Shown here: positions 8,171 to 34,043 of the stretch, piece by piece
Layout: the number at the start of each line of letters is the position of its first letter
Numbering within the stretch: position 1 is the first letter of the stretch
NCBI RefSeq assembly: GCF_013376475.1
Contig: NZ_CP045508.1
Location: forward strand, 1,485,501 to 1,549,500
Source of the DNA: Desulfolutivibrio sulfoxidireducens
GTDB taxonomy: Bacteria > Desulfobacterota > Desulfovibrionia > Desulfovibrionales > Desulfovibrionaceae
Reading direction: 5' to 3'
DNA: 64,000 nucleotides
Translations under genes and position numbers: made by a program
The notes under the pieces: model-generated
The model's database searches: none
Seen by the model: the letters and a program-made list of their open reading frames with translations, nothing else
Told to the model about the DNA's origin: nothing

Positions 8171-9952
8171 ATGGACCCGAGGGAACAGCGGGGGACGTTT
8201 GACATCGGACTGGTCCTGGCCGGGGCCGTATCCGGCGGGGCGTACACGGCCGGGGTCGTGGATTTCCTTATCCAGGCCCTTCGGGAATGGGAAAAGGCCA
8301 AGACCGAGCGGCCAGGCGACCCGGACATCCCCAGACACGTCACCCGGCTCAAGGTGCTGTCCGGGGCCTCGGCCGGGGGCATGACCGCGGCGGTCCTGGC
8401 CGCGTCCCTTTTTGATGGCTTCGATCCGGTCACCGGACTGGCCGAGGGCCAGCCCGCCCCGGTGAACAACAGACTCTACGGCTGCTGGGTGGACCGCATC
8501 GACATCGGGCATCTTCTGGCCGACAGGGACCTCAGGGCCGATCCGACGCTCGTCTCCCTGCTTGACTCCACCATCCTCGACGACATCGCCGCCTACGGCT
8601 TCGGGGCCGGCGGGTCGCGCCCGGGTCCGGCCCGGCCCTGGGTGGGCGATCCCCTGGAACTCATCCTCACCGTGGCCAACCTGCGGGGCATCCCCTATGG
8701 CCTGCCGTTCGCCGGAGAAAACCACCCCCGCCACGAGCTTTTGCGCCACCAGGATGAGGTCCGGTTCGTTCTTGGCTCGGGGACCCCGGACACGTCCCCG
8801 GCGGACGCGGTCCATCTCGATCCGGCCACCCGCCAGGGGCCGGGATGGGAGCTCTTTTTCCGCGCCGGGCTGGCCACCGGGGCCTTCCCCCTGGGCCTGG
8901 CCCCGCGCGTCCTGGTCAGGCAACGACGGCACTATGACCGGCGGCACTGGGACGTGCCGGAGAAGACCGTTATGCTTGGGGACGGGAAAAAGCGGGTCAC
9001 CTATGGCCAGACCGGGATCATGCCCGCGTGGGGCGAAAAGGGGGCCGACGGCCGCGAGGGGGACGACGTGACGTTTCTGGCCGTGGACGGCGGACTGATG
9101 AACAACGAGCCCTTCGAACTGGCCAGAAAGGCCCTGGCCGGGGACGATTCATGCAACCCGCGCGGCCTTGGCGACGTCAAACGGGCCGTGCTCATGATCG
9201 ATCCCTTTCCCGGGCCGGGCCGGGACCGGCGAAAAGGCGAAACCACCGACAGGCCATCCGACGTGGTGGAGGTGGCCGCACGGATGTTTTCGGCGCTTCT
9301 GGCCCAGGCCCGCTTCAAGCCCGAGGAACTCGCCCTGGCCCTCAACGCCGGCGTGTACAGCCGGTTTTTGATCGCCCCGGGCGCGGGGAACGCCGCTTCA
9401 GGCCGCCCGCCCATGGCCGCCGCCGCCCTTGGCGGCTTCGGAGGCTTTCTCTCCAGGAAATTCCGCCGGTTCGACTTCCAACTCGGCCGCCGCGACTGTC
9501 AGCGGTTTCTCAGGGACCATTTCGTGCTGCCGCTCGAGGGGCATGCCGGGCCGGCTTTTCAGGCCGGTCACAGCCCCATGGCCGCGAACATCGAACTGGT
9601 CAAGGCCAATCCCGTTTTTCGGGACAGCGTGGATTTCGCCACGTTTTGGCGCACGGATTCCACAGGAGCCCGGGTGTTGCCCATCATCCCCCTGTGCGGC
9701 GCGGCGCTTGCGGAGGTCCCCCTGATTCCCCGCGCCGGCATCCGCATGACCGGGGACGAACTTGCGGCCCTGCGCCTCCCGATCCAGAACCGGCTCACGG
9801 TCGTCGCCACGGCCCTGTCTTTCAGGACCCGCCGGGTGATGCCCCGGTGGATCGTCCGGACGCTGTTTCGGCTCAAGAAAAAGGCGCTCACCGCCGCCAT
9901 CCTGGACGCCATCCGGGCCGATCTGGCCGCGCACGGGCTTTTCGAGGCCTGA
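8171..9952 (+). CDS. Patatin-like phospholipase
   Basis: Protein of 593 residues with the patatin acyl-hydrolase core. The oxyanion-hole glycines are G18-AVSGGAYTAG, the nucleophile elbow is G65-A-S67-A-G69, and the catalytic Asp lies in VDGGLMNNEP near residue 305. All three parts of the Ser-Asp site are present, so an active lipid acyl hydrolase is likely. There is no signal peptide. The C-terminal half (about 310-593) is not one I recognise. The start at 8171 has GGAGG just upstream; the frame extends to 7817 but without a comparable signal. It is twice the size of minimal bacterial patatins. Confidence 0.85.
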   Translation: MDPREQRGTFDIGLVLAGAVSGGAYTAGVVDFLIQALREWEKAKTERPGDPDIPRHVTRLKVLSGASAGGMTAAVLAASLFDGFDPVTGLAEGQPAPVNNRLYGCWVDRIDIGHLLADRDLRADPTLVSLLDSTILDDIAAYGFGAGGSRPGPARPWVGDPLELILTVANLRGIPYGLPFAGENHPRHELLRHQDEVRFVLGSGTPDTSPADAVHLDPATRQGPGWELFFRAGLATGAFPLGLAPRVLVRQRRHYDRRHWDVPEKTVMLGDGKKRVTYGQTGIMPAWGEKGADGREGDDVTFLAVDGGLMNNEPFELARKALAGDDSCNPRGLGDVKRAVLMIDPFPGPGRDRRKGETTDRPSDVVEVAARMFSALLAQARFKPEELALALNAGVYSRFLIAPGAGNAASGRPPMAAAALGGFGGFLSRKFRRFDFQLGRRDCQRFLRDHFVLPLEGHAGPAFQAGHSPMAANIELVKANPVFRDSVDFATFWRTDSTGARVLPIIPLCGAALAEVPLIPRAGIRMTGDELAALRLPIQNRLTVVATALSFRTRRVMPRWIVRTLFRLKKKALTAAILDAIRADLAAHGLFEA

Positions 9953-29066: not shown

Positions 29067-29100
29067 GCCCCCGGCCATGGGATGTCCATGGCCGGGGGCT
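29067..29100 (+). terminator. dnaK terminator (copy 1 of a duplicated hairpin)
   Basis: A 14-bp perfect stem (GCCCCCGGCCATGG and its complement) with a 5-base loop, followed by CTTGACTTTG rather than a long T run. The same 33 bases recur exactly at 29461-29493. Confidence 0.75.
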
Positions 29101-29407: not shown

Positions 29408-29459
29408 GGCGGGGCTCTTGTAACGGGAATCGGACGCGAGGCCGCGTCATGAAAGAATG

Positions 29460-29502
29460 CGCCCCCGGCCATGGGATGTCCATGGCCGGGGGCGTTTTTT
29501 TT
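29460..29502 (+). terminator. Terminator (copy 2 of the duplicated hairpin)
   Basis: The same hairpin as at 29067, extended by one C-G pair and followed by eight T residues, which makes it a strong intrinsic terminator for the DUF1640-like gene. Confidence 0.9.
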
Positions 29503-29569: not shown

Positions 29570-31501
29570 TTAGCCGTCACCCGGGGCGGGGGTGCCGGGC
29601 GCGGTGGGCGACCCATCTGAAACGCCGTGTTGGCTGTCGGAAGCCTTGCCGTCACCCGGGGCGGGGGCTCCGGGAGCGGTGCCCGACCCATCTGAAACGC
29701 CTTGTTGGCTGTCGGAAGCCTCGCGGTATGTGTCGCCGGCCTCGACCGTGGTGGCGATGGCGAACGAGCCGTCCGAGGCGGCGATGACGATTTCGGCCTT
29801 CTCCTTGAGGCCGTCGGGACCTTCGATCCTGTAACGGTTCGCGGCCGTGTTTCTGGCCTTGAGCGGGGTGTCGCCGCAACGGGCGACAAGCGGTTCCCGG
29901 TTGAGCACGATCCCGGAAAAGTCGATGTCCAGGACCTTGTCTGCTGCGCTGTCCGTGGAGATCGTTTTTTGAATCGTGATGTCGATGATCTCCAGGGCGT
30001 TGTCCACCACGAAGCTGCTGCCGGTGGGGGGGATGACGACGATCTGCTTCAGGCCGACATTCAGGGGTTGGTCAGGGAGCTTGAACGTAAGGGTGTTCTG
30101 ATTGAGGAAGGTGGTCGGTATCGGCGCCTGCGTGCCTTGCAGCAGGAGCTTGGTATTGTCCGTGAACCCCCGGCCGACGAGCGTGATCTCGTTCTTGAAG
30201 TCCTTTTTTACCCGGCGCGGCAAAAGGTAGTTGACCACGGTCGCGCCGGTCAGTTTGCCGCCGATGTATCCGCCCTGGCTTACGAGAAACAGGCCGTTGA
30301 GGGTGGTCGGGATGTCGGGGAGGCCTGTGTTGAAAAACTCCGGATTGAAGGAATAAAAAACATAGATGCCGACTCCGACAAGGGTGAAGACGAAGAGTTG
30401 CAGTCTGGTGAGGCTGATTTCGTTGTTTTCCGAGAAAAAGTCGCTGAGTTTTTGCTCGGTGGCGGCCAGATCGTTTTTTGGGTGGGTGTTGCCCAGGCCC
30501 TTGGCGGTGATGAGACCGCCGTAGCTTATGCCGAGAAGCCCGAGCAGGCTGGCGTTGAAATCCGGTATGGCCGCCTCCCCGGTAAGGACGCCCTTGCCCA
30601 GGGCCAAAAACACGTAACTCCAGACAACGACAACCGTCCAAAGCAACGCCTGCAATTTGGAGAGGCTGTAGGTATTCGTGTTTTTGTCCGAAAGCATCAT
30701 CTTGCACAATTCGCAAATTGAATGGTTCTTCCCGTAGATGTTTTTCAGTATAAAAAATATAATGATAAGGATAATGGCTATGGATATGAATGAGATCCAG
30801 GCCACCTGAATTTTAGCATCATCACGCACAATATCAACCAAAACCCAGTTTGATTTCAGTGGCTTTTTACCTCCGCTTGGAGTTTCAAGCATGAGAGGGA
30901 CATTTTGTCCGCATAGCCAGATATCATCGTATAATTTCTTGGAGAGTTCGTATACCGGGATAAGAAATTGAGCCTCCTGCTGCATGTCCTTGTCAGGAAT
31001 GCTGACAAAGCTTGCTTTTATTGGGTAATAATTATGCATGAATAGTGTGATTTCGTCAGGATTCATTCCGAAATATTGCCCTTTTATCGTGAGCAATTGG
31101 CCTCCTGTGATTCTCTTTGGGAGTGCCTGTATGATTTTTGGTGTGATTCTTATCTCGGAATATCCGGATGGGCCAATCGTTATAATCTTTTCAAGAAGCA
31201 CCTCCGAGCCGGATTTTACCGTTATGCGGGCATGGTCAACGAGGGAGTCGGGATATATCGCTTCGTAGACTCTTGGTTGGCCGGCGATCGAGGAGAGTTG
31301 GACGAAGAGGCTGCTTTTTGAGTTGTTGGCCAGCACCTCGGTTATCTCCGGTCCGCACGTCCTGTTGTCGTAGATATGGAAGGTCGTTTTGCTGACGGGA
31401 ACGATTTCGATGTTCGGGGAAGGAGATTGAGCGCTGCACGGCGAGGCCGGGATGACGACCGCCACGAGAAGAAACAAGAGAAACCGGATGCCCTGTTTCA
31501 T
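29570..31501 (-). CDS. TIG/IPT-domain membrane protein with duplicated two-span module
   Basis: Protein of 643 residues. It has a signal peptide (1-24), an extracytoplasmic region with an IPT/TIG-like stretch (GQLLTIKGQYFGMNPDEI), and a membrane span near 233-253. Two related modules follow: SLSKLQALLWTVVVVWSYVF...LLGISYGGL (about 277-335) and SLTRLQLFVFTLVGVGIYVF...LFLVSQGGY (about 357-415). A second TIG-like domain (about 425-505) and a C-terminal tail with two copies of an ASDSQ(Q/H)GVSDGS unit end the protein. The N-terminal half is clearly AT-richer than the neighbouring genes. AGGGGG lies eight bases before the ATG. No function can be assigned. Confidence 0.78.
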   Translation of the reverse strand: MKQGIRFLLFLLVAVVIPASPCSAQSPSPNIEIVPVSKTTFHIYDNRTCGPEITEVLANNSKSSLFVQLSSIAGQPRVYEAIYPDSLVDHARITVKSGSEVLLEKIITIGPSGYSEIRITPKIIQALPKRITGGQLLTIKGQYFGMNPDEITLFMHNYYPIKASFVSIPDKDMQQEAQFLIPVYELSKKLYDDIWLCGQNVPLMLETPSGGKKPLKSNWVLVDIVRDDAKIQVAWISFISIAIILIIIFFILKNIYGKNHSICELCKMMLSDKNTNTYSLSKLQALLWTVVVVWSYVFLALGKGVLTGEAAIPDFNASLLGLLGISYGGLITAKGLGNTHPKNDLAATEQKLSDFFSENNEISLTRLQLFVFTLVGVGIYVFYSFNPEFFNTGLPDIPTTLNGLFLVSQGGYIGGKLTGATVVNYLLPRRVKKDFKNEITLVGRGFTDNTKLLLQGTQAPIPTTFLNQNTLTFKLPDQPLNVGLKQIVVIPPTGSSFVVDNALEIIDITIQKTISTDSAADKVLDIDFSGIVLNREPLVARCGDTPLKARNTAANRYRIEGPDGLKEKAEIVIAASDGSFAIATTVEAGDTYREASDSQQGVSDGSGTAPGAPAPGDGKASDSQHGVSDGSPTAPGTPAPGDG

Positions 31502-31606: not shown

Positions 31607-31826
31607 CGTTGTGCTTCCAACCGCGCCAGGCCTTCCGTGGCCGAGGCCGGCGGAGCCCGCCTGGCGGCAAGCGCCTCGTCCGTCGATTTCATCCTCCCCG
31701 CCGTCCTTGCCTTCACTTCCCCATGCGTATAAGGATCAAGCCTGCCACGCCTTGGGTGAGCGGTTTTTCCCATTTCCCGAAAACGGTCCCGCGCCGCCGC
31801 GCCCGGCCGAAACCCCCGAAACGGCC

Positions 31827-34043
31827 ATGAAACCAACGACATTCGCGTCCGTCCGCGCCGCCGTCATCCTCGCGCTCCTGCTGGCCATGGCGGGATGCGC
31901 CGGCCTTGAAGGGCCAGGGGAATCCGGCCGGCCTCCCAAGCCGCCGACCGCCGCCCAGGACCCCCGCTTCGCCGAGGCCGACGCCGCCTGGCAGGCCGGA
32001 CGCCACGAACAGAGCCGCAACCTCTATTCCCTGCTCATGAACCAGCGCGGCCTGCCAAAGGACCTGAAACTTTTGGCCGTCAAACGCAGCGCCCTAAGCG
32101 CCCTGTTCATGGGGGACTTCAAGGCCGCCCAGCCCGGCCTCGACGCCTGGCGCGCCGCCGATCCGGCCGCCGCCGCAACCTGGGAGTGGAACTACCGCTA
32201 TGCCCAGACCCTCTCGGGCCTCGGCCGGGATGATCAGGCCCGGGAACACCTCGGAAGACTCATCTCCGAGAACCGGGTCCCCTGGCTGGTCCAGGCCGAG
32301 GCGGCCATCGATCTCTCTTTGCGCCACGCCAAGGGCGGCGACGCCGCGGCCGGGGTGCGGCTTCTGGCCGAGGTCCATCGACGCGGCACGGACCCCGCCG
32401 CCGTGGCCAAAATGGAGGAATACCTGGCCAAGAACCTGGGAAGCCTGCCCGACCCGGCCCTGGCCAAGTGCGACGCCCTGGTCTCCGAGGCCAACCTCGA
32501 CAGCTTTCCCTACAACCTCGTGGCCCTGGAGCGCGCCCGCCGCGCCGCCCTGACCGCCGCCGACAAACGGCCCTGGCTGCGCGAGCTGGCCGATCGCCTG
32601 GGCCGGGCCGGCGAACTGGCCGACAGAACCCTGCCCCAGCGCATCCTCAATAAGGGGCTGGAAGGCCTGGCCGCCTCGTCCCTGGTTCCGGTGGCCCAGA
32701 TCCAGGCCCCGCCGGCCGGCCAGACCGTGGCCGTGCTGTTGCCGCTTGGCGGCCAGTTCCGGGAGTTCGGCGGCAAGGTGGTCAAGGGCATCCAGGCCGG
32801 GCAGGCCGAACTGAGCCAGGCCGGAACCCCGGTGGAGGTGACGGTCATCGACGTCACCCAGCCCGACTGGTTGACCAGGCTGCAAAACCTCCCGCCCGAC
32901 GTCACCCTGGTCGGCGGCCCCATGCACCGTATCTCGCTCCAGGAACTGCACAGTTCCGGGCTCGTTCCCGGTGGCCGGGTCTATTTGATGTTCATGCCCA
33001 CCCTGGGCGAGGCCCTGCACGAAGGGGCTGACGCCTGGCGCTTTTTCAGCAGCCCCAAGGACGAGATCGACGCCCTCCTGAACCTGTCTTTGGGGAGCTT
33101 CGGCATCCGCCATTACGGACTCTTGCGTCCCGAGGACCGCTACGGCCAGGCCATGGGCGAACTTTTCGCCCTGGAGACCGCCCGGCTGGGCGGCCAGGTC
33201 ACGGCCACGGGCATCTACAGCCCGGCCGACGCCACGGGCTGGGACGTGGCCGTGCAGCAGATGCTGCAGCAGGCCGAGGCCTCCGGCGGCTTTGGGGCGG
33301 TGTTCATCCCCGACGACTGGAACCGCTCGGACGGCGTTTTGCCCTATTTCTTCCACAACAAGGTCGAGGACCTGCTGATCATGGGGCCGCAACTGTGGAC
33401 CGAGGCCCTGACCCGGGCCGCCGCCACAAAAACCAGCATCAACATCCAAAACTATCGTCTGGCCGTGTGCCCCGGCGCGTGGTGGTCGGACAACACCGCT
33501 CCGGCGGCCCAGGAACTGGTGCGCCGCATGCGGACCGAGGGGCAGGAGTCGCCGGATTTCTGGGTGGCCCTGGGGTATGATTTCATCCGCATGGCCGCCA
33601 AGCTCGGCCCCATCCCGCCGAACCCGGCCCCGGGAGACGTCTCCACCCGGCTTGCCCAGGCCGCCGCGTCCATGCAGTGGAGCATGGCCCCCTTAAGCTA
33701 CGACCCCTCCGGGCAGGTGCACCAGTCCATGTTCCTTTTCCGGCCGTCCGTGGCCGGTCCCGTGCCCCTGGACCCCGAGGGCTTTCGCGAACGCCTGAAC
33801 ACCATCCGCAGTCGGGCCGGTTCCGCGAGCGCGCCGGAGACCGAAAGTTCCTATCTGGCCCCGCGTGAGGAACAGTCCGGCATGGAAACAGCGCCCCCCG
33901 GGGATGGTTTGTCCGCACCTGTGGATCCGTCGGTGTCGACAACGCCCCGGCCGCCGGCCGCCGGAGTCCCTCCGACGTATCCCGCCGCGCCGGTCTATCC
34001 CGCCGGTCAGCCCGTCCCGGCCCACCAACCGGCGACCAATTAA
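31827..34043 (+). CDS. LpoA/LppC-like lipoprotein with periplasmic-binding fold
   Basis: Protein of 738 residues with a lipoprotein signal (lipobox AMAG-C24). The first part (about 45-290) is helical and repeat-like (TPR-type). From about 300 ([27 protein letters not shown]) it reads as a type 1 periplasmic binding fold like LpoA/LppC and leucine-binding proteins. In Gammaproteobacteria LpoA activates penicillin-binding protein 1A from the outer membrane; here that role is inferred from domain order only. The last 80 residues are Pro/Ala-rich. Twenty bases separate it from gatC. Confidence 0.8.

Follow-up and report, generated by a model that had tools for sequence, protein, structure and literature searches.

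A TIG-domain membrane protein of Desulfolutivibrio sulfoxidireducens appears to belong to an undescribed family with a duplicated two-helix core

Introduction

TIG-type domains are familiar from modular envelope proteins. The gene considered here (29570..31501, minus strand, in the 64,000-nucleotide stretch of Desulfolutivibrio sulfoxidireducens DNA that was analyzed, hereafter the window) encodes a protein of 643 amino acids in which a TIG domain is attached to a membrane segment that looks internally repeated, and it raises the question of whether this arrangement belongs to any described family and what its membrane core might do. A sequence-only reading had proposed that TIG-like domains flank a duplicated two-span module, that the N-terminal half is AT-rich and the C-terminal tail repetitive, and had named no known system. 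Here, we follow up these proposals by profile searches, structure prediction and comparison of relatives and their gene neighbors.

Results

Domain organization of the protein

The coordinates and strand of the gene, taken from the list of open reading frames, were confirmed, and the gene is present in one copy in its own 4.16-Mb genome. Its parts, all on the minus strand, begin with a hydrophobic stretch (model helix at residues 2–19) that marks a putative signal peptide (residues 1–25, 31427..31501; cleavage site placed by eye), followed by an N-terminal outer domain (26–118, 31148..31426), for which pLDDT is below 50 over residues 23–94, and a second outer domain (119–234, 30800..31147) that may be TIG-like. 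The first transmembrane helix, TM1 (235–256, 30734..30799), recognized by hydropathy and as a model helix at 237–259, leads to module 1 (274–337, 30491..30682), in which a short outer loop joins TM2 to TM3 (model helices 280–307 and 317–337). An inter-module linker (338–354, 30440..30490), the place of a coiled-coil hairpin in some relatives, precedes module 2 (355–419, 30245..30439), which comprises TM4, a short outer loop and TM5 (model helices 364–385 and 399–421). Behind a basic flank (422–436) lie the C-terminal TIG domain (438–491, 30029..30190), predicted to be cytoplasmic, and an Ig-like beta domain (511–592, 29726..29971; model strands at 523–586), whose Z values of 5.2–5.8 to Ig and filamin folds indicate only a common fold. 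The repeat tail (29573..29722) resolves, on repeat comparison, into two in-frame 75-nt copies (2 × 25 residues) that are 91% identical; the 29-base core of this repeat has no other occurrence in the genome at up to three mismatches.

The model of the protein has a mean pLDDT of 61, with block means of 77–92 in the core and 60 in the linker. The model of a relative from Lysobacter sp. Root690 (L046; pLDDT 85, pTM 0.73) gives the order beta ectodomain (82–192), TM1, TM2, TM3 running into the coiled-coil hairpin, TM4 and TM5, whereas relatives L016 and L030 have a short inter-module linker.

The C-terminal TIG domain was recognized by Pfam (PF01833, E = 5.5e-8, two stretches, best at 438–491), with a whole-protein score of 33.1 bits against a gathering cut-off of 20.9. 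NCBIfam NF058597 (choice-of-anchor Z repeat) matches almost the same stretch (437–494, E = 2.5e-6), at 27.5 bits under its cut-off of 30, and extends over the TIG-like part without the membrane core. Of the two flanking TIG-like domains first claimed, the C-terminal one is thus clear, whereas the outer one is supported weakly: an hhalign comparison placed residues ~119–234 in register with the ectodomain of relatives at a probability of 3.7% and E = 0.012, against E values of at least 0.062 for 20 shuffles; two stretches taken from elsewhere in the protein gave 0.041 and 0.044. The modeled ectodomain of L046 aligns with the IPT/TIG folds of plexin, EBF and Rel and with CGTase (Z = 6.4–7.3, ~90 residues, rmsd mostly ~3), although such Z values are in the common range of the tool and uninformative on function. 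Pfam also finds a C-terminal TIG domain in relative L018, while nine of 10 distant relatives scanned singly gave no Pfam TIG match. The protein and L018 share a C-terminal domain with the TIG/IPT family, and the L046 ectodomain looks alike in fold, but TIG is one accessory domain and the four-helix core lies outside its reach.

An internal duplication, probably old

The proposed duplication was borne out at two levels. Within the protein, the module-1 stretch (263–345) aligned with the module-2 stretch (346–425) at a Smith–Waterman score of 84, compared with a mean of 25.3 (sd 4.7, maximum 47) for composition shuffles of the second stretch and a maximum of 59 for shuffles that preserve hydrophobic positions; none of 2000 shuffles reached 84 in either test. 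Across relatives, with the 39 of 73 rows complete enough for the comparison, the module-1 and module-2 profiles matched with 98% probability in hhalign (E = 1.4e-13 for that single comparison). A third repeat around TM1 was also considered and was dropped at an out-of-sample E of 5.3.

A tree built from the 64 modules of 32 proteins separates all first modules from all second modules by one branch, with support of 90/85, which is below the program's star level of 95/80; 64 columns were kept for it, and many of its forks are open. The split recurred in 92% of 200 bootstrap trees, and none of 500 label shuffles gave a value as low. It is the expectation from a single old doubling, which, given this split, most likely came before the family spread through about eight phyla.

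A family reached through its membrane modules

With the whole protein as query, no relatives were found in viral contigs, species genomes, plasmids or phages; the family was reached solely through alignments of the modules. These gave matches in eight of 297 class genomes at E 0.01, own genome included, and in five of 297 phylum genomes, again with the own genome, which a wider profile raised to six. One of the eight class genomes is doubtful (G131, locus L012), since stops interrupt its aligned region; the alignments do not include it, but it is among the 13 genomes counted as family-carrying. A scan of species genomes with L016 and two plasmid-borne relatives added 57 loci, with records labeled Acidobacteria, Bacteroidetes, Chlorobi, Ignavibacteria, Verrucomicrobia groups, Planctomycetes (Scalindua), Proteobacteria and Deltaproteobacteria, including Desulfobulbaceae. 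Most are metagenome bins, in which single organism labels may be wrong, and several are near-duplicate or truncated. The count of eight phyla takes Deltaproteobacteria as the phylum of the window, because a record so labeled (L023) shares one protein with L016 of that phylum.

The window protein was then matched out of sample: a profile of the 57 loci, seeded with L016, L021 and L022 and built without the window gene, any member of its genus or the remaining relatives L008–L018, found the window open reading frame at E = 1.4e-26 among 6232 open reading frames (those of the window and the 57 loci), the best stretch covering profile positions 1–130, and found no other match in the window up to E 1. 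On these alignments, the protein is best described as a divergent member of an undescribed, widespread and presumably inner-membrane family with an old internal duplication.

On Rhizobium plasmid pRlX4 (L022:2755-15872), the relative is found among genes for M23/LysM, DUF2272/SH3 and M15/SH3 enzymes of cell-wall type; DUF3616 and DUF2272 genes recur near the R. anhuiense relative (L044), on the opposite side. Trypsin-like and non-specific endonuclease domains are encoded near two alphaproteobacterial relatives (L062:7349-13077 and L044:11624-13906).

Database and fold searches gave no family over the core, either for the protein (Pfam, NCBIfam, PHROGs, PADLOC and PDB sequences) or for the 10 relatives scanned singly against Pfam and NCBIfam. 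For 43 family members searched against Pfam, NCBIfam and PHROGs, scattered weak and coiled-coil matches appeared among the matches listed, these being the best 25 of 87 families, 25 of 44 and 25 of 30, respectively, so that a match to a single relative may hide. The lowest Pfam E value among them was 0.0009 (NfeD membrane domain, in one of the 43), and one relative matched DUF2644 at E = 0.011. Searches of PDB and viral folds, in which the membrane part was hardly probed, gave no match with E at or below 0.001; for a relative's model, integrase and LSD1 were rejected as kin, as the top structural alignments were to its long coiled coil. No publication about the doubled-hairpin family was found in the part of the literature covered by our search. 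The finding that the early reading had named as its refutation, a match to a single well-known family lacking internal duplication, was not seen in the collections searched; the reading is to be amended in that the duplication marks an old, widespread and unnamed family.

Conservation and predicted topology

Conservation was read from 54 aligned rows of a list of 61, from which L010 and eight near-duplicate or short rows had already been omitted. Q284, W288 and Q368 are invariant (54/54), as are the basic character of position 366 (R/K) and that of position 416 (K/R). T373 and G324 are kept in 53 rows, L280, L322 and L404 in 51, and I325 and S326 in 49; Pro395 is present in 49 and followed by an acidic residue at 396 in 40.

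The topology was derived from the models and from most of the loop charges. The outer loops, B and D, carry mean K/R counts of 0.3 and 0.6 over the 54 rows and none in the window protein, and the flank behind TM5 has five K/R and one D/E. The most likely arrangement has the ectodomain outside, five helices and the C terminus inside, and the paucity of basic residues in the outer loops together with the basic flank after TM5 places the TIG domain and tail probably in the cytoplasm. In this proposed topology, most of these conserved residues lie towards the cytoplasmic helix ends of the two halves, a placement that suggests a single pseudo-symmetric site for packing, a lipid or a ligand.

The locus and its counterparts in the genus

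The gene sits between a small CCDC90-like gene behind dnaK and an LppC-like gene, which is followed by gatC and gatA. The CCDC90-like neighbor matches PF07798 (which we take to be DUF1640) below the cut-off. The adjacent open reading frame at 31611-34043 resembles LppC and periplasmic-binding proteins, both with Pfam scores slightly under the cut-off, and is present in all 22 genomes of the window's taxonomic family that were searched. A strong palindromic stem, found by stem search behind the gene (29459..29495, no strand assigned), has a good T run when read on the plus strand, for the neighbor gene, and a poor one on the minus strand; terminator-like sites in the region number 10 against 4.4 expected. 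The CCDC90-like gene is flanked on either side by this stem and its counterpart at 29067-29099, and the 27-base core of the stem has exactly two occurrences genome-wide at up to three mismatches.

Base composition varies sharply along the gene. The claim of an AT-rich N-terminal half holds for residues 119–272 (G+C 0.36–0.42) but not for residues 1–118 (0.52–0.59); the modules are at 0.54–0.58 and the tail at 0.73, compared with 0.63–0.71 for six neighboring genes. The same-genus copy is likewise low near TM1 (0.35). The low G+C may reflect foreign origin or a different constraint on the gene.

That copy, in genome G002, occupies the same place and is 52% identical in its C half, and it is split by an insertion sequence into halves that match residues 20–163 and 162 onward. 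The element lies at about 8738-10000 of L005, with an open reading frame at 8812-9858 (plus) read by eye as a transposase; a script found no terminal inverted repeats, and ends that match were recognized by eye. The gene is absent from genome G001; at the homologous place (L102:2610-3409) it has two tandem CCDC90-like genes with 85% and 41% identity to that of the window. Since the gene is found in two of three genus genomes searched, with one copy broken, it is accessory and looks dispensable. In the module region, compared across 158 codons, the window gene and the same-genus copy differ at codon positions 1, 2 and 3 by 0.27, 0.15 and 0.56, which is, as judged from the codons, the mark of purifying selection.

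Gene neighbors of distant relatives

The neighbor survey revealed no general partner gene, although recurring company was seen in a few loci. Among 84 adjacent or near proteins (80 of 92 listed and four others), the commonest Pfam family, GGDEF, occurred three times; genes were called here by longest open reading frame, a method that errs in G+C-rich DNA. One of two lipoproteins, A or B, lies beside or near the gene in five of 67 loci. The copies of lipoprotein B (L114 and L115) are homologous with E about 1e-12.

Lipoprotein A, which carries Y-D-x-x-x-D behind its lipobox, forms a recurring unnamed gene pair with a helical protein of ~110 residues (L063:5051-5884, L119:7067-7960, L077:4048-4824, L129:6357-7169, L130:723-1605 and Variovorax plasmids H3–H12). 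The pair is near the gene in three of 67 loci: it follows it in L063 (Scalindua) and in L119 (the taxonomic family of the window), and in L077 (Chthoniobacterales) it precedes it with two genes between. It also occurs without the family nearby, in L129, L130 and five Variovorax plasmids.

Discussion

The analyses support the anatomy of the core well; confidence in any mechanism is low. We favor an envelope sensor or adaptor, in which the ends have been exchanged and the core kept, over an anchor, a channel or a part of a defense cassette, and give it a probability of about 0.35. The outer domain would bind a periplasmic ligand or partner, which in some lineages may be the neighboring lipoprotein, and TM1 would transmit this binding to the pseudo-symmetric core. 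The loop charges and models put the two ends of each hairpin on the cytoplasmic side. The conserved Gln, Trp, Ser, Arg and Lys residues at the cytoplasmic helix ends could form a moving or lipid-contacting site, and the cytoplasmic part, which varies (coiled coil, TIG or tail), might relay the change or dock a partner.

This reading draws on a core that is kept, as seen in the family-profile match, the module split, the loop charges and the invariant Q284, W288 and Q368, while the outer and cytoplasmic parts vary between the TIG domain of L018, the coiled coil of L046 and the short linker of L016 and L030. The IPT/TIG-like ectodomain of L046 and the lipoproteins in five of 67 loci are in keeping with it. 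Several observations weigh against it: no signaling enzyme was recognized in the scanned proteins and no partner is conserved; lipoprotein A has no match in the own genome at E 0.01 and occurs in one of the 13 genomes given as family-carrying; the linker of the window protein is acidic (two K/R, five D/E) and no help to the topology; and a cytoplasmic location is unusual for TIG domains. Model confidence is modest and the Z values are ordinary. A channel or a plain anchor would, moreover, suit the same anatomy.

As a structural anchor, the core would be no more than a stable membrane foot, and the outer and inner beta domains would fix envelope or cytoplasmic proteins in position. The helices have small-residue motifs (G-I-S-x-G-T) that suit tight packing, and neither a catalytic signature nor a conserved partner was seen, but invariant Gln, Trp and Arg/Lys over so many phyla are not obviously needed for it, and we consider the anchor possible, if somewhat unlikely.

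A small channel or transporter, in which the two parallel hairpins would enclose a pseudo-twofold pore, Pro-Glu/Asp ahead of TM5 serving as the acidic site outside and the Gln residues as the inner gate, appears more doubtful. The parallel duplication, the acid after Pro395 and the invariant polar residues at the helix ends would fit, but the acid is not kept at the corresponding position 314 of module 1 (mostly Thr, Val, Ser or Ile; Asp in four of 54), the large variable soluble parts are left unexplained, and neither a channel sequence match worth reading nor a fold match was obtained, although the core was hardly probed in the fold searches. The best PDB profile match of the family members, to the TMCO1-type calcium load-activated channel (E = 0.86), is no evidence of kinship. 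Doubled two-helix units are known from K2P potassium channels, which share the parallel doubling, but no pore loop or selectivity filter was seen here and the outer loops are short. YidC has an outer beta domain and a cytoplasmic coiled-coil hairpin between membrane helices, and the present family resembles YidC/Oxa1 and TMCO1 in its outer beta domain and, in some relatives, in such a hairpin; it differs in its tandem doubled hairpins, in the absence of the coiled coil from the window protein and from relatives such as L016 and L030, and in giving no significant match. The YidC/Oxa1 superfamily was absent from the results of those same fold searches, which hardly probed the membrane core.

A further reading, which we consider unlikely, makes the doubled hairpin a new transmembrane transducer core, whose two pseudo-symmetric hairpins, marked by an invariant Gln-x3-Trp and an Arg/Lys-x-Gln-x4-Thr motif, would switch between states and be joined, in many phyla, to varied outer sensors and to cytoplasmic or operon-encoded outputs such as lipases and phosphoesterases.

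Less credible again is an accessory conflict or defense cassette, in which the protein, with a lipoprotein and a hydrolase, would sense envelope attack and release or restrain a lipase or nuclease. It takes its appeal from the patchy distribution (six of 297 phylum genomes) and from consecutive same-strand runs: gene, patatin-like, lipoprotein B and small helical protein in L115; lipoprotein B, gene and metallophosphoesterase-like in L114; gene and DUF2235-like in L117; and gene, lipoprotein A and small helical protein in L119 and L063, with the patatin, DUF2235 and metallophosphoesterase names read by eye from motifs. Even with L077, these amount to only six of 67 loci, and the window locus has no lipoprotein, small helical or hydrolase neighbor of these kinds; PADLOC 2.0, searched with the window protein, returned no family up to E 5, and the five of 297 phylum genomes with lipoprotein A (three of them strong matches) all lack the family. 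A phage-derived, holin-like lysis protein is scarcely credible, as the PHROG holin matches are not significant (E = 1.3 for the protein, 0.015 at best, in two of 43 relatives), searches of 50,697 phage records with the protein and with L016 turned up no relative, nor did pattern scans of viral contigs, and the soluble parts are large and the site, between dnaK and gatC/gatA, is chromosomal.

The membrane core is unassigned among the families searched; the findings do not establish a new mechanism. The versions of Pfam, NCBIfam and PHROGs used here do not recognize this membrane domain, which has invariant polar residues and is distributed over about eight bacterial phyla. With a name for it, many 'hypothetical proteins' would become a single family open to testing. 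The clean, old duplication would also offer a simple case of a two-helix hairpin turning into a pseudo-symmetric membrane protein.
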